Shown: piece after piece, positions 3,644 to 47,443 of the stretch
How the letters are laid out: every line of letters begins with the position of its first letter
How positions within the stretch are numbered: position 1 is the first letter of the stretch
DNA from: Chloroflexota bacterium
GTDB taxonomy: Bacteria > Chloroflexota > Dehalococcoidia > UBA2985
Length of the DNA: 61,462 nucleotides
Assembly: GCA_016210515.1 (NCBI GenBank)
Contig: JACQTZ010000023.1
Span: forward strand, 1 to 61,462
Direction: 5' to 3'
The notes under the pieces: generated by a model
Databases searched by the model: none
What the model was told of the DNA's origin: nothing
The model's input: only the letters and a program-made list of their open reading frames with translations
Program-made: the position numbers and the translations under genes

Positions 3644-4129
3644 ATGACCACGAGGGAGATAGAGCTATCGCTCCTGGACCCGGTCCTGGAGCGGCACAGG
3701 GGCCAGCAGGACGCCCTGATTACCATGCTCCAGGAGATGCAGACCGTCTACGCCTACCTTCCTGAACAGGCCCTGGAGCGTCTGAGCCGGGAAACGAAGA
3801 TACCCCTGAGTCGAATCTACGCTGTGGCGACTTTCTACGCCCAGTTCTACCTGACCCCTCGCGGTCGGAACACGGTGCGCATCTGTCGGGGAACAGCCTG
3901 CCACGTCCAGCGAAGCGAGCTGATAATCACGGCCGCGGAGGACACCCTGGGCATCAAAGAGGGAGAAACCTCGGATGACCTCCAGTTCTCCATAGAGACG
4001 GTGGCGTGCCTGGGGACCTGCTTTCTAGCGCCGGTGATGATGATAAACCAGTCCTACCACGGCCATCTTGACCCGCAGAAGACCAGGACAATCCTGCAGG
4101 GATTTACCAAGTCCAGGAAGGAGCCTTAG
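3644..4129 (+). CDS. nuoE: NuoE/HylA-like [2Fe-2S] subunit of formate dehydrogenase
   Basis: A 161-residue thioredoxin-fold ferredoxin of the complex I 24-kDa family. The N-terminal half is a helical bundle (DALITMLQEMQTVYAYLPEQ). The four cluster cysteines are in CRGTAC and, about 35 residues on, in VACLGTC. GACAGGAGG gives a strong ribosome site before the ATG. The stop overlaps the GTG of the next gene by one base. With the NuoF-like and FdhA proteins it should form the electron-input arm that links formate/CO2 to NAD(P)H, possibly with ferredoxin. The symbol reflects family, not complex I membership, since no other nuo genes are present. Confidence 0.92.
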   Translation: MTTREIELSLLDPVLERHRGQQDALITMLQEMQTVYAYLPEQALERLSRETKIPLSRIYAVATFYAQFYLTPRGRNTVRICRGTACHVQRSELIITAAEDTLGIKEGETSDDLQFSIETVACLGTCFLAPVMMINQSYHGHLDPQKTRTILQGFTKSRKEP

Positions 4130-6057
4130 TGGAAAGGCTGAGGAACGCCCAGGAGCTACAGAGCTTCCGCAACAGGCTGGTGGCGGCCCAGGATGGCAAC
4201 AAGAGTTGCCTCAGGATTTGCATGACGGGGTGTCGCGCCCAGGGAGCGGAAGGGATAAGGGACGCATTCAAGGAAGAACTGGCAAAGCAGGGGCTGGAAA
4301 ACGAGGTGGAGGTCCGGGAGACAGGGTGTCAAGGCTTCTGCGCCCAGGCGCCGGTAATGGTGGTTGAGCCACAAGGGTTCTTCTACCGACAGCTAACTCC
4401 CAAGGACGTCCCAACCATCGTTACGGAGACTCTCAAAGAAGGCAAGGCAGTCGAACACTTGCTGTACCTGGATCCCAAGAGCGGCCAGAGGGTCACTTAC
4501 GAGAGCGACATTCCCTTCTACAAGGGGCAGCAAAAGAACGTCCTTCGCAACTGCGGGATCATAGACCCTACCAGTATCTCGGACTACATCGCTCGTGGTG
4601 GATACACTGCCCTGGAAAAGGCCCTGGGCAGCATGACCCCTGAGGAAGTCATCAGCCAGGTGACCAGGTCCGGCCTGAGGGGACGTGGAGGAGCAGGATT
4701 CCCCACAGGCAGAAAATGGGGGTTTGTCCGAGCCGCACCTGGAGACGTGAAGTACCTGGTATGCAACGGAGATGAAGGTGACCCCGGCGCCTTCATGGAC
4801 AGGGCGGTGATGGAGGGAGACCCCCACAGCGTGCTAGAGGGAATGCTCGTTGCCGCCTACGCCACGGGGGCCAAGACGGGGTACATCTACGTGCGGGCTG
4901 AATACCCCATCGCCGTAGAGAACCTGAAGCTCGCCGTGGCTCAAGCCGAGGAGCTAGGGCTTCTGGGAAAGAGCATCCTGGGGTCGGGCCTAGACTTCGA
5001 CATAAGGATAAAGGAGGGCGCAGGCGCCTTTGTCTGCGGCGAGGAGACGGCCCTCCTTGCCTCCATCGAAGGCAGGAGAGGGACACCTCGGCCACGGCCT
5101 CCCTTCCCGGCCCAGTCGGGCCTGTGGGGCAAGCCCACCAACATCAACAACGTGGAGACCTACGCCAACGTCCCCCTCATCATCCTCAACGGGGCTGACC
5201 AGTACGCCAAATTAGGAACCGAGCAGAGTAAGGGCACCAAAATCTTCTCCCTGGCCGGCAAAATCAACAACACCGGCCTGGTGGAGGTCCCCATCGGCAT
5301 CCCTCTAAGGGACATCCTCTTTGATATCGGCGGTGGAGCGCCCGGCGGGAAGAAGCTCAAGGCGGTGCAGATGGGAGGCCCATCGGGAGGGTGCGTGCCG
5401 GAGATGCACATGGCGCTGCCGGTGGACTATGGCTCCCTGGAGGCCATAGGGGCCATTATGGGCTCCGGAGGCATGGTGGTTGTGGATGAAGACACCTGCA
5501 TGGTAGAGATGGCCCGCTACTTCCTCAACTTCGCCCAGGTGGAGTCCTGCGGCAAGTGTGCCCCCTGCCGCCTGGGCACCAAGAGGATGCTGGAGATGCT
5601 GACTCGAATCACCGAGGGAAAGGGCGTTGAAGGGGACGTGGAGCTGCTCACCGAGCTGGCTGAGGGGGTCAAGGACTCCTCCCTGTGCGGCCTGGGGCAG
5701 ACCTGCCCCAACCCGGTGCTGACCACCATAAGGTACTTCCGAGACGAGTACGACAAGCACATCAGGAACCAGCAGTGCCCCGCCGGCGTGTGCAAGGTGC
5801 TCATCAAGTACTACATAGACCCTGAGAAGTGCATGGCCTGCCTTATTTGTGCGCGCATGTGTCCTGTCCAGGCCATCGAAGGGGGTAGGAACATCATCCA
5901 CTTCATCGACCAGGAGAAGTGTACCCAGTGCGGCACCTGCCTGGCCGTCTGCCCGGTCAACTTCAACGCGGTGAAGGTCATCTCCGGGGAGCTGGTGCCA
6001 CCTCCTCGCCCCGCGGAAGAGAGGGTGCTAGTGCGAACAAGAGGGGGAAGACGATGA
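4129..6057 (+). CDS. nuoF: NuoF/HylB-like NAD(P)H- and FMN-binding flavoprotein subunit
   Basis: 642 residues, longer than complex I NuoF (about 430) because of additions at both ends. In order: an N-terminal thioredoxin-like [2Fe-2S] domain (Cys 27, 31, 35 and a CQGFC pair); the FMN/NADH fold with GLRGRGGAGFPTGRKW near 182-197 and GAGAFVCGEETAL; the SLBB domain; the N3-type [4Fe-4S] site SCGKCAPCRLGT near 474; and two C-terminal ferredoxin motifs (CMACLICARMCP, CTQCGTCLAVCP). This architecture is typical of HylB/HydB-like subunits of bifurcating hydrogenases and formate dehydrogenases. The start is GTG, with AAGGAG upstream, and the stop overlaps fdhA by four bases. Confidence 0.93.
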   Translation: MERLRNAQELQSFRNRLVAAQDGNKSCLRICMTGCRAQGAEGIRDAFKEELAKQGLENEVEVRETGCQGFCAQAPVMVVEPQGFFYRQLTPKDVPTIVTETLKEGKAVEHLLYLDPKSGQRVTYESDIPFYKGQQKNVLRNCGIIDPTSISDYIARGGYTALEKALGSMTPEEVISQVTRSGLRGRGGAGFPTGRKWGFVRAAPGDVKYLVCNGDEGDPGAFMDRAVMEGDPHSVLEGMLVAAYATGAKTGYIYVRAEYPIAVENLKLAVAQAEELGLLGKSILGSGLDFDIRIKEGAGAFVCGEETALLASIEGRRGTPRPRPPFPAQSGLWGKPTNINNVETYANVPLIILNGADQYAKLGTEQSKGTKIFSLAGKINNTGLVEVPIGIPLRDILFDIGGGAPGGKKLKAVQMGGPSGGCVPEMHMALPVDYGSLEAIGAIMGSGGMVVVDEDTCMVEMARYFLNFAQVESCGKCAPCRLGTKRMLEMLTRITEGKGVEGDVELLTELAEGVKDSSLCGLGQTCPNPVLTTIRYFRDEYDKHIRNQQCPAGVCKVLIKYYIDPEKCMACLICARMCPVQAIEGGRNIIHFIDQEKCTQCGTCLAVCPVNFNAVKVISGELVPPPRPAEERVLVRTRGGRR

Positions 6058-8744
6058 ACACCATCCGTCTGCAAATCGACGGCAGAGATATCAGCGCCCC
6101 AGAGGGCGCTACCATCCTCGATGTCACCAAGAGCGCCGGAATCGAGATTCCCCGCCTGTGCCACATGGAGGGGTCGCTTCCCAACGCCGCCTGCCGTCTC
6201 TGCGTGGTTGAAGTCCAGGGCTCCCGGAACCTGGTGGCATCCTGCTCTTTCCCCGTGGCCAACAATATGGTAGTCAAGACCAACTCGGAGAGGGTCGCCA
6301 GGGCCAGGAGGCAGGTGATGGAGCTTCTCCTCTCCGACCACCCCTTCGACTGCATGACCTGCGAGAAGAGCGGCGCCTGCGACCTGGAGAGATACGCCTA
6401 TCAACTGGGCGTCCGCACCAGCAGATTCCAGGGAGAGAAGCACGCCTACCCCCTGGACGAGTGCAACCCCTTCATTGTGCGAGACTACAACAAGTGCATC
6501 CTCTGCGGGCGGTGTGTCACTGCCTGCAACGACATTCAGTTCATTGGGGCCATCAACATCGCCCATCGCGGGTTCGACGCCAAGGTATCTGCACCCTTCG
6601 ACAGGTCTCTCCTGGACAGCACCTGCGTCTTCTGTGGTAACTGCGTGGATGTGTGCCCAACAGGCGCTCTCACCGAGAACACACGAAGGCTCCAGGGGCG
6701 GGAGTGGGAGTTCAACAAGGTACGCACCATTTGCCCGTACTGCGGCGTCGGCTGCAACATAGAGCTGAACGTCAAAGACAACCGTATCGTGAAGGTGAAG
6801 GCCGTGGACAACGAGGCGGTCAACAAGGGTTCCCTCTGTGTCAAGGGAAAGTTTGGCATGGACTTCGTCCACAGCCCCGACCGGCTGACCACTCCCCTCA
6901 TCCGCCGCAACGGGCAGCTATCCGAGGCTTCCTGGGAGGAGGCCTACGACCTCATCGCCAGCAGGTTCGGCCAGATCAAGGAGGAGTCGGGCCCCAACGC
7001 CTTTGCCTTCCTGAGCTCCGGGCGGGCCACCAACGAGGCCAACTACCTGGTGCAGAAGTTCGCCCGAGCGGTCATCGGGACCAACTGTGTCGACAACTGC
7101 GCACGTACTTGACACGCCCCCACGGTCGCCGGTCTGGCGGTCATGGTAGGCACAGGGGCAATGAGCAACTCCATCGCAGAGTTGGAGAATGCACCCCTCA
7201 TCCTGGCGGCGGGAACCAACACCACGGAGAGCCACCCCGTCATATCCCTGCGGGTAAAGAAGGCGGTCTCTAAAGGGGCCAAACTCATCGTCGTTGACCC
7301 CCGCAAGATAGAGCTGACCGACCTGGCCCACCGCTGGCTCCGCCTGAAGGTGGGCACCGACATCGCCCTGTTCAACGCCATGGCCCACGTAATCATAGAG
7401 GAGGGCCTCTACAACAAGGAGTACGTGGCCGCGCGCACGGAGGGCCTGGAGGAGCTGCGAGAGTTCGTGAAGGAGTACACACCCCAGTACGCGGAGGAGG
7501 TCACGGGGGTGCCCGCGGAGGATATTGTAGTCGCGGCCCGTGAGTATGCCGCGGCCCGTCCCGCATCCATCATCTACACTCTGGGCATAACCGAGCACTC
7601 CTGCGGCGTCCACAACGTCCAGTCGCTGTCCAACCTGGCACTCCTGTGCGGGAACTTCGGCGTCCAGAACGGCGGGGTCAACCCTCTGCGAGGCCAGAAC
7701 AACGTCCAGGGCGCGGGCGACATGGGCGCGCTGCCCAACGTGCTCCCTGGCTACCAGCGAGTAGGAGACGAAAATGCCCGAGCGCGCTGGGAGAGGGAGT
7801 GGGGCGTCCAACTCAACCCACGACCTGGCATCACCAAGATTACCGCCATGGAGGAAGTCCTGAAGGGAAACGTGCGGGCTATGTACATCATGGGCGAGAA
7901 CACCGTGGTCTCCGACGCCAACGCCGGCAAGGTGCGCGAGGCACTGGAAGCGGTAGAGTTTTTGGTCGTTCACGACATATTCCTGACGGAGACTGCCCAG
8001 CTAGCCGACGTGGTGCTGCCTGGCGCCTCCTTTGCCGAGGAGGATGGGACCTTCACCAACACCGAGCGGCGCGTCCAGCGGGTGCGCAAGGCGGTGGAGC
8101 CACCGGGACAGTCCAGGGCAGACTGGACAATCCTCTCGGAGCTGGCAACGCGCATGGGGTACCCCATGTCCTATGAACACCCTTCCCAGATATGGGACGA
8201 GATGGCGCGCAACACGCCCATCATGGCCGGCATCAGCTACAACCGCCTGGAGCAACAGGGCATCCAGTGGCCCTGCCCAACGCCCGATCATCCAGGCACT
8301 CCGTACCTGCACAAGAACACCTTCGCCTCGGAGAAGGGATATCTCCAGTCGGTGCCTCACGTGCCCCTGGCGGAGCCGCCCGACGACGAGTACCCCCTGG
8401 TGCTGACCACCGGCAGGCGGAGGCCCAACTATCACACCGGCACCCAGACCGGCAGAGCCAGGGGATTTGACGTGCTGGTCCCCCACGAGTGGGTGGAGGT
8501 CAGCCCCCAGGACGCCGAAGAGCTGGGAGTGTCTGACGGCGAGGAGGTGGAGGTGGCCTCTCGGCGGGGACGGGTGCGGGTTCATGCCAAGGTCACCGAC
8601 CGCTCCCCCAGGGGCCTGGTATTCATGAGCTTCCACTTCCCGCAGTCCACTCTCACCAACCTCCTTACTGTAGACGCCTATGACCCCATCACGGAGACGC
8701 CGGAGTTCAAGGCGTGCGCGGTGCGTGTAGAGAAGGCTGGCTGA
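6054..8744 (+). CDS. fdhA: Selenocysteine formate dehydrogenase, catalytic subunit
   Basis: 896 residues read through an in-frame TGA at 7110-7112 (residue 353). The codon sits at the exact active-site position: NCART-U-HAPTVAGL, where Sec formate dehydrogenases have AR-U-H.P and Cys versions have C. Both halves share one frame, and the downstream half has no ribosome site of its own. Domains: [2Fe-2S] ferredoxin at the N-terminus, His-Cys cluster region (DHPFDCMTCEKSGACDLE), two [4Fe-4S] motifs (CILCGRCVTAC, CVFCGNCVDVCP), the molybdopterin oxidoreductase N-terminal cluster (CPYCGVGC), catalytic domain and C-terminal dinucleotide-binding domain. It reduces CO2 to formate for the methyl branch, with Mo or W. 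ATGA overlap with nuoF. Confidence 0.93.
7110..7146 (+). promoter_or_regulatory. Bacterial SECIS element of fdhA
   Basis: After UGA there are 18 bases, then the loop GGTCT closed by CGCC/GGCG. The lower stem includes G-C and G-T pairs and CCA/TGG at the base (7120-7122 with 7144-7146). The E. coli fdhF SECIS has the same GGUCU loop exactly 18 bases after its UGA. SelB would bind the loop. Confidence 0.85.
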
Positions 8745-8925
8745 GCCTCTGGATATGAGTACGACGGCAGCTCCCCTGGGCGGTGAGGGTATAACACAGG
8801 TACAATAAGGATATGTGACAGGAGTGGAGACCCCGCGAGCGCGTGGAACCGACCGCGAATGCCCAATGTACATGCCATTGCAGTTGCCGTATCTGGGGTT
8901 GCGAATTCGATTCTTAACGCTTGAC

Positions 8926-8954
8926 TTCGCAATGACATACCGTTACCCTATAAT
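8926..8954 (+). promoter_or_regulatory. Predicted promoter of the CODH/ACS operon
   Basis: A perfect -10 TATAAT (8949-8954) is preceded at 17 bp by TTCGCA (4 of 6 matches). A TTGACT five bases further up is too far (22 bp) to be the partner. The predicted start is near 8961, 200 bases before cooS. Confidence 0.55.
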
Positions 8955-8960
8955 TAACAG

Positions 8961-9161
8961 CGCTGATACTGGAGACGCTCAAGTCTCGGCGACGAAAACG
9001 CAAGTACCGCCTCGGGCTGCGGCGTCGCACATTGGCTTCAAGCACATGGAGGTGCGACTTCAGGCAGCCCGTTTTTTTGCCCTTGGGGGGCTGGCAACAA
9101 CGCTGGTTCCCTCGGTAGTAGGCCTTGGCCGTGGCTGATTACAAGAGGAGGTTGTTAGCGA
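8961..9161 (+). promoter_or_regulatory. Structured leader of the CODH/ACS operon
   Basis: The roughly 200-base untranslated leader contains a small hairpin GAGAC/GTCTC (8972-8987) and a segment GCGACG (8989-8994) able to pair with CGTCGC (9023-9028). That pairing would disrupt the terminator hairpin below it. I do not recognise a known riboswitch class. The rest of the 8745-9161 gap shows no convincing gene. Confidence 0.5.
9014..9078 (+). terminator. Nested intrinsic terminator/attenuator before cooS
   Basis: Outer stem GGGCTGC (9014-9020) with GCAGCCC (9064-9070), inner stem GTCGCAC (9024-9030) with GTGCGAC (9052-9058), then G and seven T. It lies between the predicted promoter and cooS, so it could attenuate the operon. 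It may also end read-through from fdhA. Confidence 0.75.
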
Positions 9162-11123
9162 ATGGTTAGCAAGAACGATAGCCCCATGAGTATTGACCCC
9201 GCCGCCGTAGAGATGCTGGAACTGGCCGAGGCCAATGAGTATACAACGGCCTTCAGCCGGGCCAGGAATCTGGCGCCTTGTCCCATTGGGGTGAATGGCC
9301 TGTGCTGCCGTATGTGTTTCATGGGCCCGTGCCGATTCGTACCCAGAAGGGGCCAGAACATTGAGGAGTTGACCGGCGTCTGTGGAGCTACCGCGGCCAC
9401 CGTGGTTGCCAGGAACTTCGCCCGCATGGTCGCAGGAGGAGCCGCCGCCCACTCGGACCACGGACGCGACATGGCCCTGGTCCTGCTGGCTGCGGCCAAG
9501 GGAGAAGCGAAGGGCTACAAGGTCAAGGACGAAGAGAAACTTGACAAGGTAGCCCACCTTCTGGGGATCGAGGCCCATGACCGCCCGATTGCAGACGTGG
9601 CCAAGGACGTGGCTGAGAAGGCTCTGAGCAACTTCGGCCAACAAACGGGAGAGATTACCTACGCCTCCAGGGCTCCCAAGCGCCGCCAGGAGCTATGGCG
9701 ACGCTTGAACCTTATACCCCGGGGCATTGACCGCGAAATAGTGGAGACCATGCACCGTACGGGCATGGGAACCGACCAGGACCCTGAACACGTCCTGCTG
9801 CACACCCTTAAAGCATCCATGACCGATGGCTGGGGCGGCTCCATGCTGGGCACAGACATAACCGATATTCTCTTCGGCACCCCCAGACCCCGCACATCCC
9901 AGGCCAACCTGGGAGTCCTCAAGGATGACCAGGTCAATGTGGTAATACACGGCCACGATCCCACGCTGTCAGCACAGATAGCCGAGATAGCAAAGGAACC
10001 CGAGCTCATTGCGTACGCCAGGTCCAAGGGGGCAAAGGGAATCAACCTGGCAGGGATCTGCTGCACCTCCAACGAGGTACTGGCACGCCAGGGTGTGCCC
10101 TCAGCGGGTAACATGCTCCACCAGGAGTTGGCCATCCTCACGGGCTCTGTGGAGGCCATGATTGTGGATGTCCAGTGCACCATGGAAGCACTGACGGGGG
10201 CGGCGAAACATTTCCACACAAAACTCATCACCACATCGCCCAAGGCAAGATTTGAAGGAACTACCCACATTGAGATGGAGCCGCACAACGCTCCGGAGGT
10301 AGCCAGGCTTATCCTCCGCACTGCCATAGATAACTACCCCAACCGCCAGGCCGACCGCGTTCACATTCCCAGCCAGTTCAGCGATCTGGTGGCAGGCTTC
10401 TCTCACGAGTACATCAACTATATGCAGGGTGGCTCCTATCGCGGCTCTTTCCGCCCCCTGAACGACGCCATCATGTCGGGAAGGATACGGGGCGCCGCTG
10501 GGGTGGTGGGCTGCAACAACCCGCGAGTGACCCAGGACCAGGGGATCATGTACCAGATCAGGGAGCTCATCAAGAACGACGTGCTGGTAGTGGTCACAGG
10601 ATGCGGCGCTATAGCCGCAGGAAAGCACGGGTTCCTGACACCTGAGATAATGGAACAGGCAGGGAAGGGCCTCAAAGAAGTATGCGAAGCGGTGGGAATT
10701 CCCCCCGTTCTCCATGTAGGCTCCTGCGTAGACAACTCCCGCATTCTGACGGTGCTGAGTCAGATGGTGGAAGAGGGCGGCCTGGGAGATGACATCAGTG
10801 ACCTGCCCGCAGTGGGCCTCTGCCCTGAGTGGATGAACGAGAAGGCCCTGTCCATCGCCTGCTACTTCGTGGCTTCCGGGGCCTACGTTCTCTTTGGAGT
10901 AGGTTCTCCCGTGTCTGGTAGCCCCAAGGTGGTAGACCTGATGACCCGGGGCTGGGAAGAGACGGTGGGTGGGAAGCTGGAGTTTGAGCCAGATATGGAA
11001 AAGACACTTCAGAAGGCGCTGGCCCACATAGACGCCAAGCGACGGGCTTTGAAGCTAGAGGAGTACGATCCCAACCGATACGGCCAGAGCGGTGACGCTC
11101 GGCTTGCGGGGGCCAGAGCATAA
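9162..11123 (+). CDS. cooS: Anaerobic carbon monoxide dehydrogenase catalytic subunit
   Basis: 653 residues, the usual length of CooS/AcsA. N-terminal cysteines for the B and D clusters are at 40, 48, 49, 52, 57 and 74. The acid-base histidines are in HSDHGRD (97-103). C-cluster ligands appear in GICCTSNE, VDVQCTME, GVVGCNNPRV, VTGCGAIAAGKHG and HVGSCVDNS. It interconverts CO2 and CO on a Ni-Fe-S centre and, paired with the next gene, channels CO to acetyl-CoA synthase. AGAGGAGG precedes the ATG. It is the first gene of a long co-directional operon. Confidence 0.97.
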   Translation: MVSKNDSPMSIDPAAVEMLELAEANEYTTAFSRARNLAPCPIGVNGLCCRMCFMGPCRFVPRRGQNIEELTGVCGATAATVVARNFARMVAGGAAAHSDHGRDMALVLLAAAKGEAKGYKVKDEEKLDKVAHLLGIEAHDRPIADVAKDVAEKALSNFGQQTGEITYASRAPKRRQELWRRLNLIPRGIDREIVETMHRTGMGTDQDPEHVLLHTLKASMTDGWGGSMLGTDITDILFGTPRPRTSQANLGVLKDDQVNVVIHGHDPTLSAQIAEIAKEPELIAYARSKGAKGINLAGICCTSNEVLARQGVPSAGNMLHQELAILTGSVEAMIVDVQCTMEALTGAAKHFHTKLITTSPKARFEGTTHIEMEPHNAPEVARLILRTAIDNYPNRQADRVHIPSQFSDLVAGFSHEYINYMQGGSYRGSFRPLNDAIMSGRIRGAAGVVGCNNPRVTQDQGIMYQIRELIKNDVLVVVTGCGAIAAGKHGFLTPEIMEQAGKGLKEVCEAVGIPPVLHVGSCVDNSRILTVLSQMVEEGGLGDDISDLPAVGLCPEWMNEKALSIACYFVASGAYVLFGVGSPVSGSPKVVDLMTRGWEETVGGKLEFEPDMEKTLQKALAHIDAKRRALKLEEYDPNRYGQSGDARLAGARA

Positions 11124-11173
11124 AGAAGGCTCAGGCAACAACATAGAGGCAATTTCTACATAAGGGGGATGCG

Positions 11174-13498
11174 GTGTCCAGATATATCGCGACACGAGCT
11201 ATCAGGGGAGCAAACGCCATTGTAGCGGAGGCGGAAAAGACGCTGGATAAGGCTATCAAGGAGATGGGGCCTCAGACGCCCGTCGCCTTCACCAACACGG
11301 CCTATTTCCTGCCCACCATATACGGCTATACGGGCGTAAAAGTTGAAACCCTGGGCGACATGGTGCCCATCATGAAGAAGGCGCGGTCCATGTTAACCAC
11401 GACACCCCCCGACAAGCTCTGGCTGCCCTACCTGGGAGAGACCCTGGATGCAGGCGTGGCCACCCTCTTCGCCGAGGAGATTATCGAAGGAGTCCGCTTC
11501 GTGCGGAAGGAGCAACCTGAGCGGATGCCCCTGGACGGCATCCGGGTTGCCACAGCAGAAGTGAGCGGCGCTTTTACCTCCCCAGATGAAAACGTAGCGG
11601 CGACTCAGACCGCGGGCGGACGAGGGAACGGGCACTACGTCCTGAACGGCCCAATCGATGACATCCAGCTCCGCACCTGGGGGATACAGCTGGTGGATGG
11701 ACGTATGCCCGGCTTTGCCGCCATCGTCGGCTGCGCCAAGTCCAACGAGGTCGCGGTGAGAATCGTCCGAGAGCTTCAGCGGCGCGGCATCCTCATCTTC
11801 CTTTGCGGCAACGTCAACGGACGCAGCATCATCCATCAGCTCCTGGAAGAAGGAGTGCAGCTGGGATACGACACCTATACAGTCCCCTTTGGCACAGATA
11901 CCATCTCTGCCATCTACCCCCTGGGATTCGCCACCCGCTCCGCCCTCACCTTTGGCGGCATGACTGGTGGCCAGGCCCGGGACATTCTCCTGTACAACAA
12001 GAACCGGGTCTTTGCCTTTGTCCTGGCCCTGGGTGAGGTGGACGACCTTAAGTACGCCACCGCCGCCGGAGCCATAACCTACGGCTTCCCCGTCATAGCC
12101 GATACCCTTATCCCTCAAATCCTGCCCACGGGTATAACCACCTACGAGCACGTGGTCAGCATGCCCTTTGACGAGATTGAAGGGAAAGACGACCTGGAGC
12201 GGGCCGACAGGCTGGTACAGCGGTGCATCGAGGTCCGAGGGGTCAAGATTCAGACCACCGCCGTAGACATCCCCGTGGCCTATGGCCCTGCCTTCGAGGG
12301 AGAGATCGTCCGCCGAGACGCCATGCAGTCGGAGTTCGGCGGCCCCAGGGGTACCTGCTTTGAGATACTGCAAATGATGGACTCCGACGATGTGCAGGAC
12401 GGCCGGGTGGAGGTGGTAGGCCCCGACCTGGATGCCTTTGAGGTGGGGACCAACATCCCCCTGGGTATAATGGTGAAGGTGGCAGGCCGCAGGATGCAAG
12501 AGGACTTCGAGCCCGTCCTGGAGCGTCAGATTCACCACATGATTAACGGTGCAGAGGGTGTGCAGCACATCGGGCAGCGGGATATCACCTGGATCCGTAT
12601 CTCCATAAACACCTTTGGACGCGGCTTCCGGCTCCGCCACCTGGGCAATATCATCCATGCCAGGCTCCACGCAGGCTTCTCCGCCATCGTGGACAAGGTT
12701 CAGGTGACGCTGTATACCGAGCGACAGAAGGTGGAGGAGTTTAGAGAGGCAGCTCGCGAGGTGTACCAGGCGCGCAACCTCAAGACGTCCAACCTTACCG
12801 ACGAGTCGGTGGACACCTTCTACAGCTGCACCCTGTGCCAGTCTTTCGCACCCAGCCACGTCTGCATCATCAACCCCGAGCGGGTCGGGCTATGTGGAGC
12901 CTACAACTGGCTGGACTGCAAGGCTTCCTATGAGCTCAACCCTACCGGGCCCAACCAGCCCATCCTCAAGAGAGGGCTTATAGATGCCGAGAAAGGGGAG
13001 TGGGAGTCCGCCAACGACTTCCTGTATCAGCACTCCAACTCCACATTCCGCCGGTTGACCCTTTACTCCATCATGGACGCTCCCATGACCGCCTGTGGCT
13101 GTTTTGAGTGCATCATGATGCTCATCCCAGAGGTCAACGGATTCATGGTAGTCTCACGAGATGACCCCAGCATGACCCCAGCAGGGATGAAGTTCTCCAC
13201 CCTGGCCGGGGTAGCCGGCGGTGGCCAGCAGAGTCCCGGCATGATGGGCCATGGCAAGTACTACCTGCTAAGCAAGAAGTTCATCCCCAAGGAGGGCGGC
13301 CTCAAGCGAGTGGTGTGGATGTCCGCCAACCTGAAGGAGAGCATGGGACCGGAGCTCCGGGAGGCGTGCAAGCGCATAGGGGTGCCGGACCTGCTGGACA
13401 AGATCCCGGATGGGAACTCGGTCACCACCGTGGAGCAGCTCATGGCTTACCTCCAGGAGGTGGGACATCCGGTGCTCACCATGGAATCCCTCATCTAG
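11174..13498 (+). CDS. acsB: CO-methylating acetyl-CoA synthase
   Basis: 774 residues, full bacterial three-domain form including the N-terminal CODH-docking domain, slightly longer than the Moorella enzyme. The A-cluster cysteines are Cys552-x2-Cys555-x8-Cys564-x9-Cys574 (CTLCQSFAPSHVC), and the distal nickel is held by Cys641-Gly-Cys643 (TACGCFEC). It joins CO, the methyl group of the corrinoid protein and CoA into acetyl-CoA. The start is GTG, with AAGGGGGA upstream. The product shows no missing ligand. Confidence 0.97.
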   Translation: MSRYIATRAIRGANAIVAEAEKTLDKAIKEMGPQTPVAFTNTAYFLPTIYGYTGVKVETLGDMVPIMKKARSMLTTTPPDKLWLPYLGETLDAGVATLFAEEIIEGVRFVRKEQPERMPLDGIRVATAEVSGAFTSPDENVAATQTAGGRGNGHYVLNGPIDDIQLRTWGIQLVDGRMPGFAAIVGCAKSNEVAVRIVRELQRRGILIFLCGNVNGRSIIHQLLEEGVQLGYDTYTVPFGTDTISAIYPLGFATRSALTFGGMTGGQARDILLYNKNRVFAFVLALGEVDDLKYATAAGAITYGFPVIADTLIPQILPTGITTYEHVVSMPFDEIEGKDDLERADRLVQRCIEVRGVKIQTTAVDIPVAYGPAFEGEIVRRDAMQSEFGGPRGTCFEILQMMDSDDVQDGRVEVVGPDLDAFEVGTNIPLGIMVKVAGRRMQEDFEPVLERQIHHMINGAEGVQHIGQRDITWIRISINTFGRGFRLRHLGNIIHARLHAGFSAIVDKVQVTLYTERQKVEEFREAAREVYQARNLKTSNLTDESVDTFYSCTLCQSFAPSHVCIINPERVGLCGAYNWLDCKASYELNPTGPNQPILKRGLIDAEKGEWESANDFLYQHSNSTFRRLTLYSIMDAPMTACGCFECIMMLIPEVNGFMVVSRDDPSMTPAGMKFSTLAGVAGGGQQSPGMMGHGKYYLLSKKFIPKEGGLKRVVWMSANLKESMGPELREACKRIGVPDLLDKIPDGNSVTTVEQLMAYLQEVGHPVLTMESLI

Positions 13499-13526
13499 CC
13501 CGCTGGACAGCCAAGGAGGACATTAG

Positions 13527-14480
13527 ATGACCACGATTCAAGTGCCCACCACCAAATGGGCTGGAAAGGTGGGGGAACTCACCCTGGGTGGCGTATCCCG
13601 CAAGAAGGTAGTGGTGGGAGGCGAGACCACCCTGCCCTTCTTGCACTTTGAAGGCTCTATACCTAACGCTCCGGCCATCGCCATCGACATCGAGGACGTG
13701 GCTCCCAAGGGGTGGTCTCCTGTGCTGGAGGCCGTCTGGGGCGACGTCTGGAGCCAGGGGCCAGCGGCCTGGGCGCGCAAGGCCGTGGCCATGGGAGCCG
13801 ACATCGTGGCATTGACCCTGCGCAGCGCAGACCCCGACCTGGGGAATACCGGGGCCGCCGAGGCTGTAAAGACGGTGAAGGCAGTCCTGGCAGCGGTGGA
13901 CGTGCCCCTCATCGTCTACGGCCCAGGCGTGGCTGAAAAGGACAACGCTGTGCTGGTGGCAGTCGCCGACGCCACCTCTGGACAGCGGCTGGCGCTGGGC
14001 CTGTGCGAGGACAAGAACTACCGCACTATTGTGGCCACCTGCATGGCCAATGGCCACGTGGTCATTCCCAACACGCCCATCGACATCAATCTAGCTAAAC
14101 AACTGAACATCCTTATCACGGACATGGGCTTTCCCCGAGACCGGATTCTGATGGACCCCACCACGGGTTCCCTGGGCTACGGCCTGGAGTACGTATACTC
14201 GGTGATGGAACGCCTTCGAGTAGCGGCCCTCCAGGGAGACTCCATGACCGCCATGCCCATGATTCTCAACCCGGGCCGGGAGGGGTGGCGTTTCAAGGAA
14301 GCCAAGACCGCGGAGGGAGTCCCAGCCGAGTGGGGTGGATTAGAGGGACGCGGGATTGCATGGGAGGCAACCACAGCCATAGCGCTCCTACAGGCTGGCG
14401 CTGACATTCTGGTGTTGCGCCACCCCAAGACACTGGGGCTGGTGAAGGGAGCCATTGCCAGCCTGATGGCCACAACTTAA
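13527..14480 (+). CDS. acsD: Corrinoid iron-sulfur protein, small subunit
   Basis: 317 residues, TIM-barrel protein of the CdhD/AcsD family. Recognisable segments are VGGETTLPFLHFEG, ADIVALTLRSADPD, VIPNTPIDINLAKQLN, DPTTGSLGYGLEYVYSVMER and GADILVLRHPKTL. It pairs with AcsC to carry the methyl group on cobalamin between AcsE and AcsB. GGAGG lies upstream of the ATG. The gene sits 28 bp after acsB. Confidence 0.96.
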   Translation: MTTIQVPTTKWAGKVGELTLGGVSRKKVVVGGETTLPFLHFEGSIPNAPAIAIDIEDVAPKGWSPVLEAVWGDVWSQGPAAWARKAVAMGADIVALTLRSADPDLGNTGAAEAVKTVKAVLAAVDVPLIVYGPGVAEKDNAVLVAVADATSGQRLALGLCEDKNYRTIVATCMANGHVVIPNTPIDINLAKQLNILITDMGFPRDRILMDPTTGSLGYGLEYVYSVMERLRVAALQGDSMTAMPMILNPGREGWRFKEAKTAEGVPAEWGGLEGRGIAWEATTAIALLQAGADILVLRHPKTLGLVKGAIASLMATT

Positions 14481-14498
14481 CGCGGCGAGGTAAATGTC

Positions 14499-15869
14499 AT
14501 GCCACTATCCGGACTTGAAATCTATAAACTTCTGCCCAAGACCAACTGCAAGGAGTGTGGTTTCCCCACCTGCCTGGCCTTTGCCATGAGGCTGGCCCAG
14601 CAGGGAGTAGAGCTTTCTGCCTGCAAGTATGTCTCGGAGGAGTCCAAGCAGGCCCTGGCCGCTTCCTCCCGCCCGCCCATCCAACAGGTTACCGTGGGCA
14701 CGGGAAAGCGGGCCTTCACCGTGGGCAACGAGGTGGCCATGTTCCGCCACGAGAAGACCTTCTACAACCCTACGGCACTGGCGGTGCGGGTGAAGACGTC
14801 GCAGCCCAGGAATGACGTTGCAGCCCTCGTTTCGGCGTTGAACGTCTATCGCGTGGAACGGGTGGGCATCGACATGAGGCTCAATGCCATAGCCATCGAC
14901 GACGCGGATGGCAATCCCGCCACCTTTGCCTCTTGCGTGGAGCAGGTCGCATCGGCCACCGATATGCCCCTCATTCTGATATCCAAGAACCCCGCGGTGA
15001 TGGAGGCGGGCCTGGCCAAGGCTGGAAACAGCCGTCCCCTCATCTACTCTGCCAACGCAGAGAACGTGGCCAAAATGGCCGCCCTGGCCAAGCAGTACAA
15101 GTGTCCCCTGGCGGTCTACGGCAGCGACCTCTCCCAGGTGGCAGGGGTGGCGGACCAGGCCAACAAGGCTGGCGTAGAAGACCTGGTCCTGGACCCCGGG
15201 GCGCGGAGCTTTGGCGAAACCCTGACCCGCTTTACCCAGATTCGCCGCCTGGCGCTCAGGGACAAGGTACGCCAGGTAGGCTACCCGGTCATAGCCTTCC
15301 CAGGAGAAGGCGCCTGCTCTCCTGAAGAGGAGACTGTCCTGGCAGGCCAGTCCATCGCCAAGTACGCCAGCATCGTGGTGCTGGACCATTTCGCACCCAA
15401 CCACGCCTACCCACTGATGACCCTGCGACAGAACATCTACACCGACCCCCAGAAGCCCATCCAGGTGGCGCCCGGCGTCTATCCCATCCGAGACCCCGGC
15501 AAAGACAGCCCTGTGCTGGTCACCACCAACTTCTCCCTCACCTACTTCTCGGTCGCAGGCGAGGTGGAGGGCAGCGGCATTCCGGCCTGGCTCGTCATCT
15601 GTGATACCGACGGGCTGTCGGTCCTCACCTCCTGGGCCGCAGGAAAGTTCCACGGCGAAAAGATTGCCAAGACCGTCACCAGCCATGAGGTTGGCGCACG
15701 GGTGAACCACCGCCTAGTGGTGATTCCCGGTGCCGTGGCAGTGATCTCTGGAGAGACGCAGGAGGAGCTGTCCGGCTGGACGGTCCTGGTGGGACCACGA
15801 GAGAGCATAGACATTCCTAGCTATCTGAAAAACGTCTGGGCCACCCGGTTTCAGGAGGCCATGAGGTAG
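14499..15869 (+). CDS. acsC: Corrinoid iron-sulfur protein, large subunit
   Basis: 456 residues. The N-terminal [4Fe-4S] domain has Cys17, Cys20, Cys25 and Cys42 (NCKECGFPTC...SACKY), the low-potential cluster that reactivates Co(I). A TIM barrel and a C-terminal cobalamin-binding region follow. The C-terminal part includes TNFSLTYFSVAGEV and WAAGKFHGEKIAK, typical of AcsC/CdhE. It accepts the methyl group from methyl-THF through AcsE and donates it to AcsB. It lies 18 bp behind acsD and is certainly co-transcribed. Confidence 0.96.
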   Translation: MPLSGLEIYKLLPKTNCKECGFPTCLAFAMRLAQQGVELSACKYVSEESKQALAASSRPPIQQVTVGTGKRAFTVGNEVAMFRHEKTFYNPTALAVRVKTSQPRNDVAALVSALNVYRVERVGIDMRLNAIAIDDADGNPATFASCVEQVASATDMPLILISKNPAVMEAGLAKAGNSRPLIYSANAENVAKMAALAKQYKCPLAVYGSDLSQVAGVADQANKAGVEDLVLDPGARSFGETLTRFTQIRRLALRDKVRQVGYPVIAFPGEGACSPEEETVLAGQSIAKYASIVVLDHFAPNHAYPLMTLRQNIYTDPQKPIQVAPGVYPIRDPGKDSPVLVTTNFSLTYFSVAGEVEGSGIPAWLVICDTDGLSVLTSWAAGKFHGEKIAKTVTSHEVGARVNHRLVVIPGAVAVISGETQEELSGWTVLVGPRESIDIPSYLKNVWATRFQEAMR

Positions 15870-15885
15870 CAGCAGAGGGGTATGA

Positions 15886-17859
15886 GTGGAGAAGTCGCAC
15901 AGCACCGTCACCTTCCTGCCTGAAAACCGACAGTCCGTGGTGCCTGATGGCACCCTTCTCAACGAAGCTATCCGCCAGGCCGGCCTGGAAGCGGATATCC
16001 CCTGCGGCGGCCAGGGCAGGTGCGGCCGCTGCCTGGTACGCGTCGAAAGAGGCCAGGTGTGGAGGAGGCCCAACGCCCACATAACAGGCCAGCAGATTGC
16101 CCTGGGGTGGGCGCTCTCCTGCCAGACAGAGGTGAGAGGGGACGTAACCGCCTTCCTGATTCCCCAGAGGGTGAAGGCGAGGGTGGCTGTCTCAGGCGCG
16201 GCAAGTATCAAGGTATTGCGCAGGACCAGGCCACCTCGCGACCCCATCATCACCCAACACCTGGTTGAGCTTACCCCGCCAAGTCTTAAGAGCAATACCG
16301 CCGACCTGGAGCGGCTGCGACAGGCCCTGGCCAATGGCCCAGGCGTGAGCGACCTGGAGATTGACCTGTCCGTGGCACGGGGCCTGGATCAGACCCTGCG
16401 AGAGGGAAGCTGGCGGGTCACGGCTGTGGTAGAGCACTCACTCCATGGCAAGACTGCCCATCTGGTAGCAGTGCGGCCGGGCGATGCCGTGGGAGCCAGC
16501 CTGGGGGCCGCCGTGGACATCGGCACTACCACAGTAGCAGTTATCCTGGTAGACCTCCGGTCGGGCCGCATCATCGACACCGCCACCGGCTTCAACCGGC
16601 AGATATCCTGTGGCGAGGATGTGATATCGCGCATCGTCTACAGCCAGCGCGGCGACGGCCTGAGACACCTTCAACGATTGGTGCGAGAGACCATGAACGA
16701 CCTCATCACCGAGCTGTGCACCCGTCACGAGCTGGACCCCAGGCACATAGACCACATGGTGGTGGCAGGCAACACCACCATGAAGCACCTGTTCCTTGGC
16801 CTGAACCCCCGCTCCATACGGGAGGAGCCTTATGCCCCCCTGGCCACCAGTTTCCCCAGGGCCAGCGCCCTTGAGCTGGGGTTGAAGGCCAACCCCAGGG
16901 CCTCGGTCTACTGCGTACCATCGGTGGCGGCCTACGTTGGTGGGGATGTCACCGCCGGAGTCCTGAGCTCCCGCCTCTACAAGCAACGAGGACTGGCCCT
17001 TTTCATGGACATAGGCACCAACGGCGAGATGGTGCTGGGCAATTCCGACTGGATGGCAGCCTGCGCGTGCAGCGCTGGCCCCGCCTTTGAGGGAGCGGGG
17101 GTGCAGTGTGGCATGCGGGCGACCACAGGCGCTATAGAAGACGTGATTATCAACTACCACACCCTGGAGCCGACCCTGCGAGTCATCGGTGGTGGAGCGC
17201 CCAGGGGAATTTGCGGCTCCGGGATGATCGCCGCCCTGGGAGAGATGTTCGTTACCGGCATACTGGACAAGATGGGGCGGTTCGACGCCACCATCCAGCG
17301 TGGCCAGGGGAACGGACGGCGTCGCATCGTGTCCACAGACCACGGCCTTGCCTACGTCCTGGCATGGGCATCGGAGTCAGGCACGGGCGAAGACATCCTT
17401 CTCACCGAGGTGGACATCAATAGTCTCATACGCACCAAGGGTGCCATCTACGCCGGGGTGATGGTGATGCTGCGCTCCCTGGGCATTGACGTTAGAAACA
17501 TCGAAGCGGTGCTCATTGGAGGCGGCTTTGGACAGCACATCAACGTGGAGAAGTCCATCCTCATCGGGCTGCTGCCCGACCTGCCCTGGGACAGGTTCCG
17601 CTTCCTGGGCAACACCTCCGCCCTGGGTGCCTACCAGGTCCTTATCTCCAGGCGGGCCCGGCGGCGGGCGGAAGACATCGCTGGTAGAGTGACCTACTTC
17701 GAGCTGGTGGCCGATAACTCCTTTATGAACGAGTTCACATCCAGTCTTTTCCTGCCACACACCGACATGGAATCGTTCCCTACTGTCAAAGACCTGCTGG
17801 CAAGCGCTTCAAAAGACGGCTTCCAGGCCGTCCCCGTGGAGGAGAGAGGAGAGCGATGA
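15886..17859 (+). CDS. acsV: Corrinoid-protein activator (RACo-like ASKHA ATPase with [2Fe-2S])
   Basis: 657 residues. The N-terminal plant-type [2Fe-2S] domain has CGGQGRCGRCLVRVE and a later cysteine (LSCQTE). After a linker domain comes an actin-like ATPase core with DIGTTTVAVILVDL, MDIGTNGEMVLG and GICGSGMIAALGEM. Proteins of this build reductively reactivate oxidised cobalamin in CFeSP at the cost of ATP. Position directly after acsC supports that role. The start is GTG preceded by GCAGAGGGG. The stop overlaps cooC by four bases. Confidence 0.92.
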   Translation: MEKSHSTVTFLPENRQSVVPDGTLLNEAIRQAGLEADIPCGGQGRCGRCLVRVERGQVWRRPNAHITGQQIALGWALSCQTEVRGDVTAFLIPQRVKARVAVSGAASIKVLRRTRPPRDPIITQHLVELTPPSLKSNTADLERLRQALANGPGVSDLEIDLSVARGLDQTLREGSWRVTAVVEHSLHGKTAHLVAVRPGDAVGASLGAAVDIGTTTVAVILVDLRSGRIIDTATGFNRQISCGEDVISRIVYSQRGDGLRHLQRLVRETMNDLITELCTRHELDPRHIDHMVVAGNTTMKHLFLGLNPRSIREEPYAPLATSFPRASALELGLKANPRASVYCVPSVAAYVGGDVTAGVLSSRLYKQRGLALFMDIGTNGEMVLGNSDWMAACACSAGPAFEGAGVQCGMRATTGAIEDVIINYHTLEPTLRVIGGGAPRGICGSGMIAALGEMFVTGILDKMGRFDATIQRGQGNGRRRIVSTDHGLAYVLAWASESGTGEDILLTEVDINSLIRTKGAIYAGVMVMLRSLGIDVRNIEAVLIGGGFGQHINVEKSILIGLLPDLPWDRFRFLGNTSALGAYQVLISRRARRRAEDIAGRVTYFELVADNSFMNEFTSSLFLPHTDMESFPTVKDLLASASKDGFQAVPVEERGER

Positions 17860-47319: not shown

Positions 47320-47443
47320 ATTGTGATCGCCTGAGACCACAGGTGCCTAGGGGCTTAAAGAGTTCGCCTGTCGAGGCAAAGGGGTGGAGAATGGATTGGA
47401 ATCCTGTCCGGAATACCCCGCGCCTCCAGGCGTGGGGATTTTT
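47320..47443 (+). promoter_or_regulatory. L10 leader with terminator-like hairpin
   Basis: The segment with GAGACCACAGGTGCC, CTTAAAG and GCCTGTCGAGGC has the kink-turn and stems of the ribosomal L10(L12) binding leader. It ends with CCCCGCGCC-TCCA-GGCGTGGGG-ATTTTTG (47416-47443). L10-L12 binding would control rplJL. Confidence 0.8.

Follow-up and report, generated by a model that had tools for sequence, protein, structure and literature searches.

How transcription of the CODH/ACS operon is controlled is the question raised by a locus on a 61,462-nt stretch of DNA from a Chloroflexota bacterium (contig JACQTZ010000023.1; the entire stretch is referred to here as the window), in which the formate dehydrogenase (fdh) genes are followed by a 417-nt gap, cooS and the Wood-Ljungdahl operon. 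The fdh genes include a NuoE-like ORF (position 3644), a NuoF-like ORF (position 4129) and fdhA (positions 5919-8744, forward strand; TIGR01591), the 3' part of which spans 7143..8744. The fdhA frame contains an in-frame TGA at positions 7110-7112 and, when this TGA is read as U, continues through NCARTUHAPTV, whose U we take, from the motif, to mark the position that selenocysteine usually occupies in formate dehydrogenases. The cooS/acsA gene (9162..11123, forward strand; TIGR01702, 602.5 bits), encoding the anaerobic CO dehydrogenase catalytic subunit, begins with an ATG codon at 9162 and is the first gene of the CODH/ACS operon. According to their family matches, it is followed by acsB (11174), the genes of the delta (13527) and gamma (14499) subunits, acsV (15886) and a MinD/CooC-like ATPase gene (17856), with fhs (27157) further along.

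A sigma-70-type promoter-like site, TTCGCA-17-TATAAT, is located on the forward strand at positions 8926..8954. It consists of a -35 element TTCGCA and, after a 17-nt spacer, a -10 element TATAAT (8949-8954) that ends 207 nt ahead of cooS; an alternative -35 element, TTGACT (8921-8926), is separated from the same TATAAT by 22 nt. When scored with a custom sigma-70 matrix, the site reached 11.4, a value equalled by 4 out of 500 dinucleotide-shuffled versions of the fdhA-cooS gap; on the other hand, a simpler consensus scan of positions 7000-11000 returned this site alone, against a mean of 0.9 sites in shuffled sequences. Downstream of 9060, the best score in the matrix scan, which covered sigma-70 promoters, was 3.0. 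Transcription would be expected to start at about position 8961, generating a predicted leader of approximately 200 nt up to the cooS ATG, whose remainder beyond the terminator described below (9079..9161, forward strand) carries the Shine-Dalgarno sequence AGGAGG (9146-9151). The original prediction had placed a good promoter and about 200 untranslated nucleotides ahead of cooS, and both were confirmed, the former as a promoter-like site defined by sequence match. A transcription start after 9078, which had been named as a circumstance that would overturn that prediction, found no support in the scores of the matrix scan.

An intrinsic terminator is present between the promoter-like site and cooS, on the same strand, at positions 9013..9078. 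It comprises a nested hairpin (9013-9071), with the outer stem CGGGCUGC/GCAGCCCG and the inner stem GUCGCAC/GUGCGAC, followed by T7 at 9072-9078. The hairpin has a folding energy of -30.4 kcal/mol (z -3.9), which none of 200 shuffles equalled, and the terminator ranked first among the 42 T5+ runs on both strands of the window, in agreement with the nested hairpin and seven T claimed at the outset. In 30 shuffled windows, one strand of each being scanned, no hairpin of -20 or lower preceded a T7+ run, and T5+ runs with a hairpin of -25 or lower occurred at 0.23 per strand. The terminator is absent from a simple terminator scan because the loops in that scan were restricted to 3-8 bases. It begins 268 nt past the fdhA stop codon and also lies downstream of the promoter-like site, and no cooS promoter of the sigma-70 type was recognised after it (3.0 versus 11.4). 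A strong stop signal between a promoter-like site and an operon suggests that RNA synthesis is probably halted early as a means of limiting or switching the operon, and we consider the element at 9013-9078 to be a leader terminator and probably an attenuator of the CODH/ACS operon.

Two further structures were identified on the forward strand of the leader. The 5' leader hairpin (8961..8991; -12 kcal/mol, z -2.7) was matched by 3 of 200 shuffles, and a possible antiterminator hairpin (8989..9028; z -1.04), in which GCGACG (8989-8994) pairs with CGTCGC (9023-9028), by 26 of 200. The possible antiterminator shares bases 8989-8991 with the end of the 5' hairpin and sequesters the entire 5' arm of the terminator, so that its pairing excludes the latter. 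When its helix is imposed, the optimal fold is a three-way junction with 8962-8967/9031-9036 as the closing helix and a hairpin at 8972-8987 inside, although 30 of 200 shuffles were as good in energy (z -0.93). The leader as a whole is mildly structured, with z values of -1.35 for 8957-9083 (21 of 200 shuffles) and -1.83 for 8957-9164 (8 of 200).

Equilibrium ensemble folding of growing transcripts revealed that the 5' hairpin dominates first, and again at transcript ends 9060-9064. The antiterminator reaches a probability of 0.49-0.94 at the seven ends sampled from 9032 to 9056 (0.49-0.94 at 9032-9048 and 0.62-0.78 at 9052-9056), with the GCGACG/CGTCGC helix at 0.85-0.94 for ends 9036-9048. 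The probability of the terminator is 0.98-0.99 at ends 9072-9084, 0.97 at 9120 and 0.90 at 9161. At ends 9036, 9044, 9050, 9056 and 9063, the pairing of the terminator 5' arm was matched by 8, 22, 36, 11 and 94 of 200 dinucleotide shuffles, respectively. The 6-bp complementarity is itself at chance level, since stretches of at least 6 bp complementary to the hairpin occurred in 861 of 2000 base-shuffled leaders, and to its 5' half in 510 of 2000. Thus, the mutually exclusive folds that had been proposed do exclude each other in the ensemble, where the antiterminator gives way to the terminator, but the complementarity that suggested them is expected by chance and the competing pairing, taken overall, is marginal against shuffles. 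The folding model indicates a thermodynamic switch between antiterminator and terminator, and a regulatory switch is possible.

Among the 15 loci returned, the nearest CooS relative (85% identity) is encoded in L001 (JACVQK010000002.1), a Dehalococcoidia MAG in which the genes upstream of cooS are not fdh: a UPF0047 gene and an HMG-CoA-reductase-N-like ORF are codirectional, and IF3 lies on the opposite strand. A blastn comparison of the window with L001 found no shared DNA upstream of cooS, and the whole leaders were not significantly similar (158 of 1000 shuffles did as well), no more so than other upstream regions, such as that of L026, which has a short leader (28 of 200). In sub-regions picked by eye, 8 of 1000 shuffles were as good for the terminator stretch and 17 of 1000 for the promoter stretch. 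L001 also carries a hairpin before cooS, CTCGGGCTGC-N-AGCCCGTTT, spanning 65 nt compared with 64 in the window. This hairpin is less stable than that of the window (-24.2 kcal/mol, z -1.49), its U tract is broken, ending in TTTACTTG, and its probability in the full-leader ensemble is near 0. The occurrence of a comparable hairpin despite different upstream genes argues for an element belonging to the cooS leader. The best promoter-like site of L001 (4868-4898) is located downstream of the hairpin and scores 7.9, a chance-level value (75 of 300 shuffles), and a score of 5.1 was obtained for the stretch that aligns with the promoter of the window; hence, L001 does not support conservation of the promoter/terminator pair.

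The pairing changes between both leaders were assessed on an alignment (A1) with 64 identical positions in 126 aligned columns. The default fold retains 23 of its 34 pairs in L001, four pairs being changed on both sides, a number reached by 31 of 500 shuffles. For the antiterminator fold, 76.7% of the cells are paired (5 of 500 shuffles) and four pairs likewise differ in both partners (26 of 500 shuffles). Versions slid along the alignment gave at most two such changes for the default fold and at most three for the antiterminator fold, a control that favours the tested structures because both were derived from the window itself. In the GCGACG/CGTCGC helix, five of six pairs are kept in L001, two of them via changes on both sides; when the two strands were shifted arbitrarily, five or more pairs were kept in 30 of 289 cases. 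The matching helix of L001 (4779-4783/4814-4818) has a probability of 0.00-0.45 depending on the transcript end, remaining a minority state throughout the sampled ends. Two compensatory changes seemed to be present in a short hairpin, CCGC(CUCGGGCU)GCGG in the window and UGGC(UCGGGCU)GCCA in L001, which was dropped because its probability in the window ensemble is 0-0.03 and a one-base shift is needed. The check for covariation in a related leader yielded a helix that is retained in part and double changes that some shuffles also reach; these changes lend weak support to a switch, and covariation cannot be proved from two sequences.

The abrupt divergence of the leaders contrasts with the operon, which exhibits 82% DNA identity over 6.9 kb (window 9187-16079, L001 5018-11946) in a block that begins near 9187, inside cooS. 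The ribosomal protein L1 of the window is 67% identical to that of the L001 genome and 69% identical to that of genome G002 (8 of 11 genomes matched). A cooS match at 1e-200 was detected in 1 of 250 genomes of the order of L001, and the order of G002 consists of one genome. Movement of the operon from one lineage to another by lateral transfer, or misbinning of a contig, appears likely from these comparisons and would explain the gap between operon and L1 identities, the rarity of CooS in that order and the abrupt change in the leader. No further close relatives were found among viral contigs.

Searches with the leader DNA in 393 genomes of the class, scoring at most two candidates per genome, matched 12 of them at a per-genome E value of 0.01 or less, about four being expected. 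The best match had an E value of 1.4e-4 (about 0.06 over the 393 genomes), and L001's own genome was unmatched. A DNA search in six genomes gave matches at E values up to 1 in three, the best being 0.03, and the pattern CTCGGGCTNC-N30-60-AGCCCGTTT, deduced from the window and L001, occurred in 1 of the 393 genomes, namely that of L001. We thus found no clear homologue of the leader sequence in the class genomes. Among the collected loci, the only matches to the leader were short ones in L016 and L017 (18 and 19 nt), and a repeat or mobile insert was discarded, as the window contains no second copy. A known riboswitch or T-box was likewise excluded by a search of Rfam 15 (E values up to 10, positions 8860-9240), whose sole match was bxd_2 at 11.6 bits against a cut-off of 80; the statement that no known riboswitch class could be recognised was therefore borne out. 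A leader peptide was also rejected: seven ORFs of at least 5 codons (ATG, GTG or TTG) start within 8961-9140, none preceded by a good Shine-Dalgarno sequence; the consensus is matched at 3-4 of 7 positions for the three starting upstream of the T run and at 5 of 7 for the best, which starts at 9131.

The upstream regions of other relatives were compared in a set of 78 distinct cooS upstream regions, including the window and L001, with start codons assigned by script; one region was too short. Of 31 regions whose CooS is 60-84% identical to that of the window, 28 had a promoter score of at least 10, and in 27 of these the -10 element ended within 70 nt of the start codon, the remaining one lying at -94 (L046). 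Within the 50-60% band (39 regions), 17 reached that score, 15 within 70 nt and two far upstream (L011 at -166 and L077 at -250), and in the 40-50% band three of five did so, at -143, -202 and -243. Within 300 nt, T4+ preceded by a hairpin of -12 or lower was present in 9 of 77 regions, including two in the 60-84% band (L025, -15.2; L050, -15.0). The strongest hairpin across the regions was that of the window (-30.4), followed by L075 (-21.1). Judging from these predicted sites, closer relatives usually read cooS from a promoter near its start, the 200-nt terminator-containing leader of the window being an exception, and long predicted leaders are present in more distant lineages.

Other motifs were also observed in these regions. 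A palindrome-like sequence, YGTGAAAWYTNNCAC, lies directly 3' of the -10 element, starting 36-38 nt before cooS, in 8 of the 78 regions (L028, L030, L034, L036, L039, L044, L047 and L057), and resembles a CRP/FNR-family operator. The motif TGTG-N8-CACA, allowing one mismatch, occurred in 8 of 82 regions (about 3.5 expected) and exactly in three; neither the window nor L001 contained it, the closest sequences having at least two mismatches. In L002, two close copies of GCCGAAT-NN-ATTCGGC are located about 130-180 nt before cooS, upstream of the promoter.

We propose that attenuation in the CODH/ACS leader, with antiterminator-dependent read-through, is the best explanation of these observations, and from the sequence we give it about an even chance of being correct. 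Transcription from the 8926-8954 promoter would enter the 200-nt leader, and the intrinsic terminator would halt part of the transcripts ahead of cooS. In the default state, the 5' hairpin and the terminator would form together; if closure of the terminator were delayed or disrupted, the 8989-9028 antiterminator would hold its 5' arm and allow read-through into cooS. We infer that the promoter is used and that termination is partial and regulated, the agent being perhaps a protein, a slow or stalled polymerase or a metabolite. Of the attenuator originally suggested for this operon, the strong terminator between promoter-like site and operon stands, while the switch is marginal against shuffles. 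That same strength of hairpin and T7, with a probability of 0.90-0.99 once complete, and the marginal antiterminator would also suit an unconditional terminator, releasing a separate short RNA of about 115-120 nt (8961-9078) or acting as insulation that lowers cooS, with expression by leakage and no switching. This explanation is a serious though rather unlikely one: dependence of a key operon on leakage would be odd, a comparable hairpin precedes cooS in a second gene neighbourhood where the competing helix is partly kept, and such a short RNA has no clear homologue in the 393 class genomes.

The hairpin could instead terminate the fdh operon, cooS being read from a promoter after 9078 that escapes a sigma-70 scan. 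It is codirectional with fdhA and behind it, most closer relatives have their cooS promoter near the start codon, and the best, chance-level promoter-like site of L001 is directly 3' of its hairpin. Its distance from the fdhA stop codon, its position after a good promoter-like site, the score of 3.0 for the best window site after 9060 and the comparable hairpin of L001 behind genes other than fdh make this improbable. Less probable still is a new riboswitch, in which the modelled three-way junction (8962-9036) would close around a ligand and hold the 5' arm of the terminator, turning the operon on. The high probability of the GCGACG/CGTCGC helix at ends 9036-9048, the junction obtained when it is forced, the four L001 pairs retained by changes on both sides and the lack of matches to known families are consistent with it, but the junction energy is unexceptional (30 of 200 shuffles as good), the L001 helix is a minority state at all sampled ends, and the claim of a new riboswitch could not be upheld with no known class, no clear homologue among the 393 class genomes and two sequences that cannot prove covariation. 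It would be a long shot to regard the leader as the founding example of a regulatory RNA not recognised before, whose 8962-9036 junction would sense a one-carbon, metal or redox signal and keep the CODH/ACS terminator open, perhaps replacing the CRP/FNR-like operator of some relatives' cooS promoter. Returning to attenuation, this is a conventional type of control element, probably a leader attenuator, located in an operon of interest; if read-through is conditional, it would provide a defined 120-nt testable element in a lineage that is represented here solely by metagenome assemblies.

Literature searches on CODH/ACS riboswitches, acsA/cooS attenuators, the Wood-Ljungdahl pathway in Dehalococcoidia, acetogen start sites and Chloroflexi riboswitches gave, among the matches listed, no title dealing with a leader terminator that controls a CODH/ACS operon at the RNA level. 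In Eubacterium limosum, the 5'UTRs of the Wood-Ljungdahl clusters, of 41-64 nt, were termed relatively long and RNA-level control was suspected (PMC5651825, available portion); the predicted leader described here measures about 200 nt. In another acetogen, cobalamin riboswitches are the most abundant (PMC12456013, available portion), and the available portions of these two papers make no mention of a terminator ahead of CODH. The HMP-PP (thiS) riboswitch has an alternative fold that overlaps the terminator hairpin itself, as would the possible antiterminator fold of the cooS leader; according to the available part of its description, it has several representatives and an identified ligand (PMC6478431), whereas the cooS leader is represented by a single sequence plus one weak relative, without a match in Rfam. 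The window itself contains an L10 leader (RF00557, 47312-47452), which resembles the cooS leader in that its RNA carries a hairpin followed by T5 (at 47439) ahead of the next ORF (47462; rplJ, going by position) and differs from it in belonging to a described family with an Rfam model, while the cooS leader matches none. Attenuators based on intrinsic terminators in mRNA leaders include those of trp and pyr and cases of protein-mediated antitermination. The cooS leader differs from them in lacking a leader peptide with a good Shine-Dalgarno sequence and any Rfam family, T-box included, but shares with them the order of their parts: a promoter-like site, hairpins that compete in the folding ensemble, a terminator with its U tract and then the operon.
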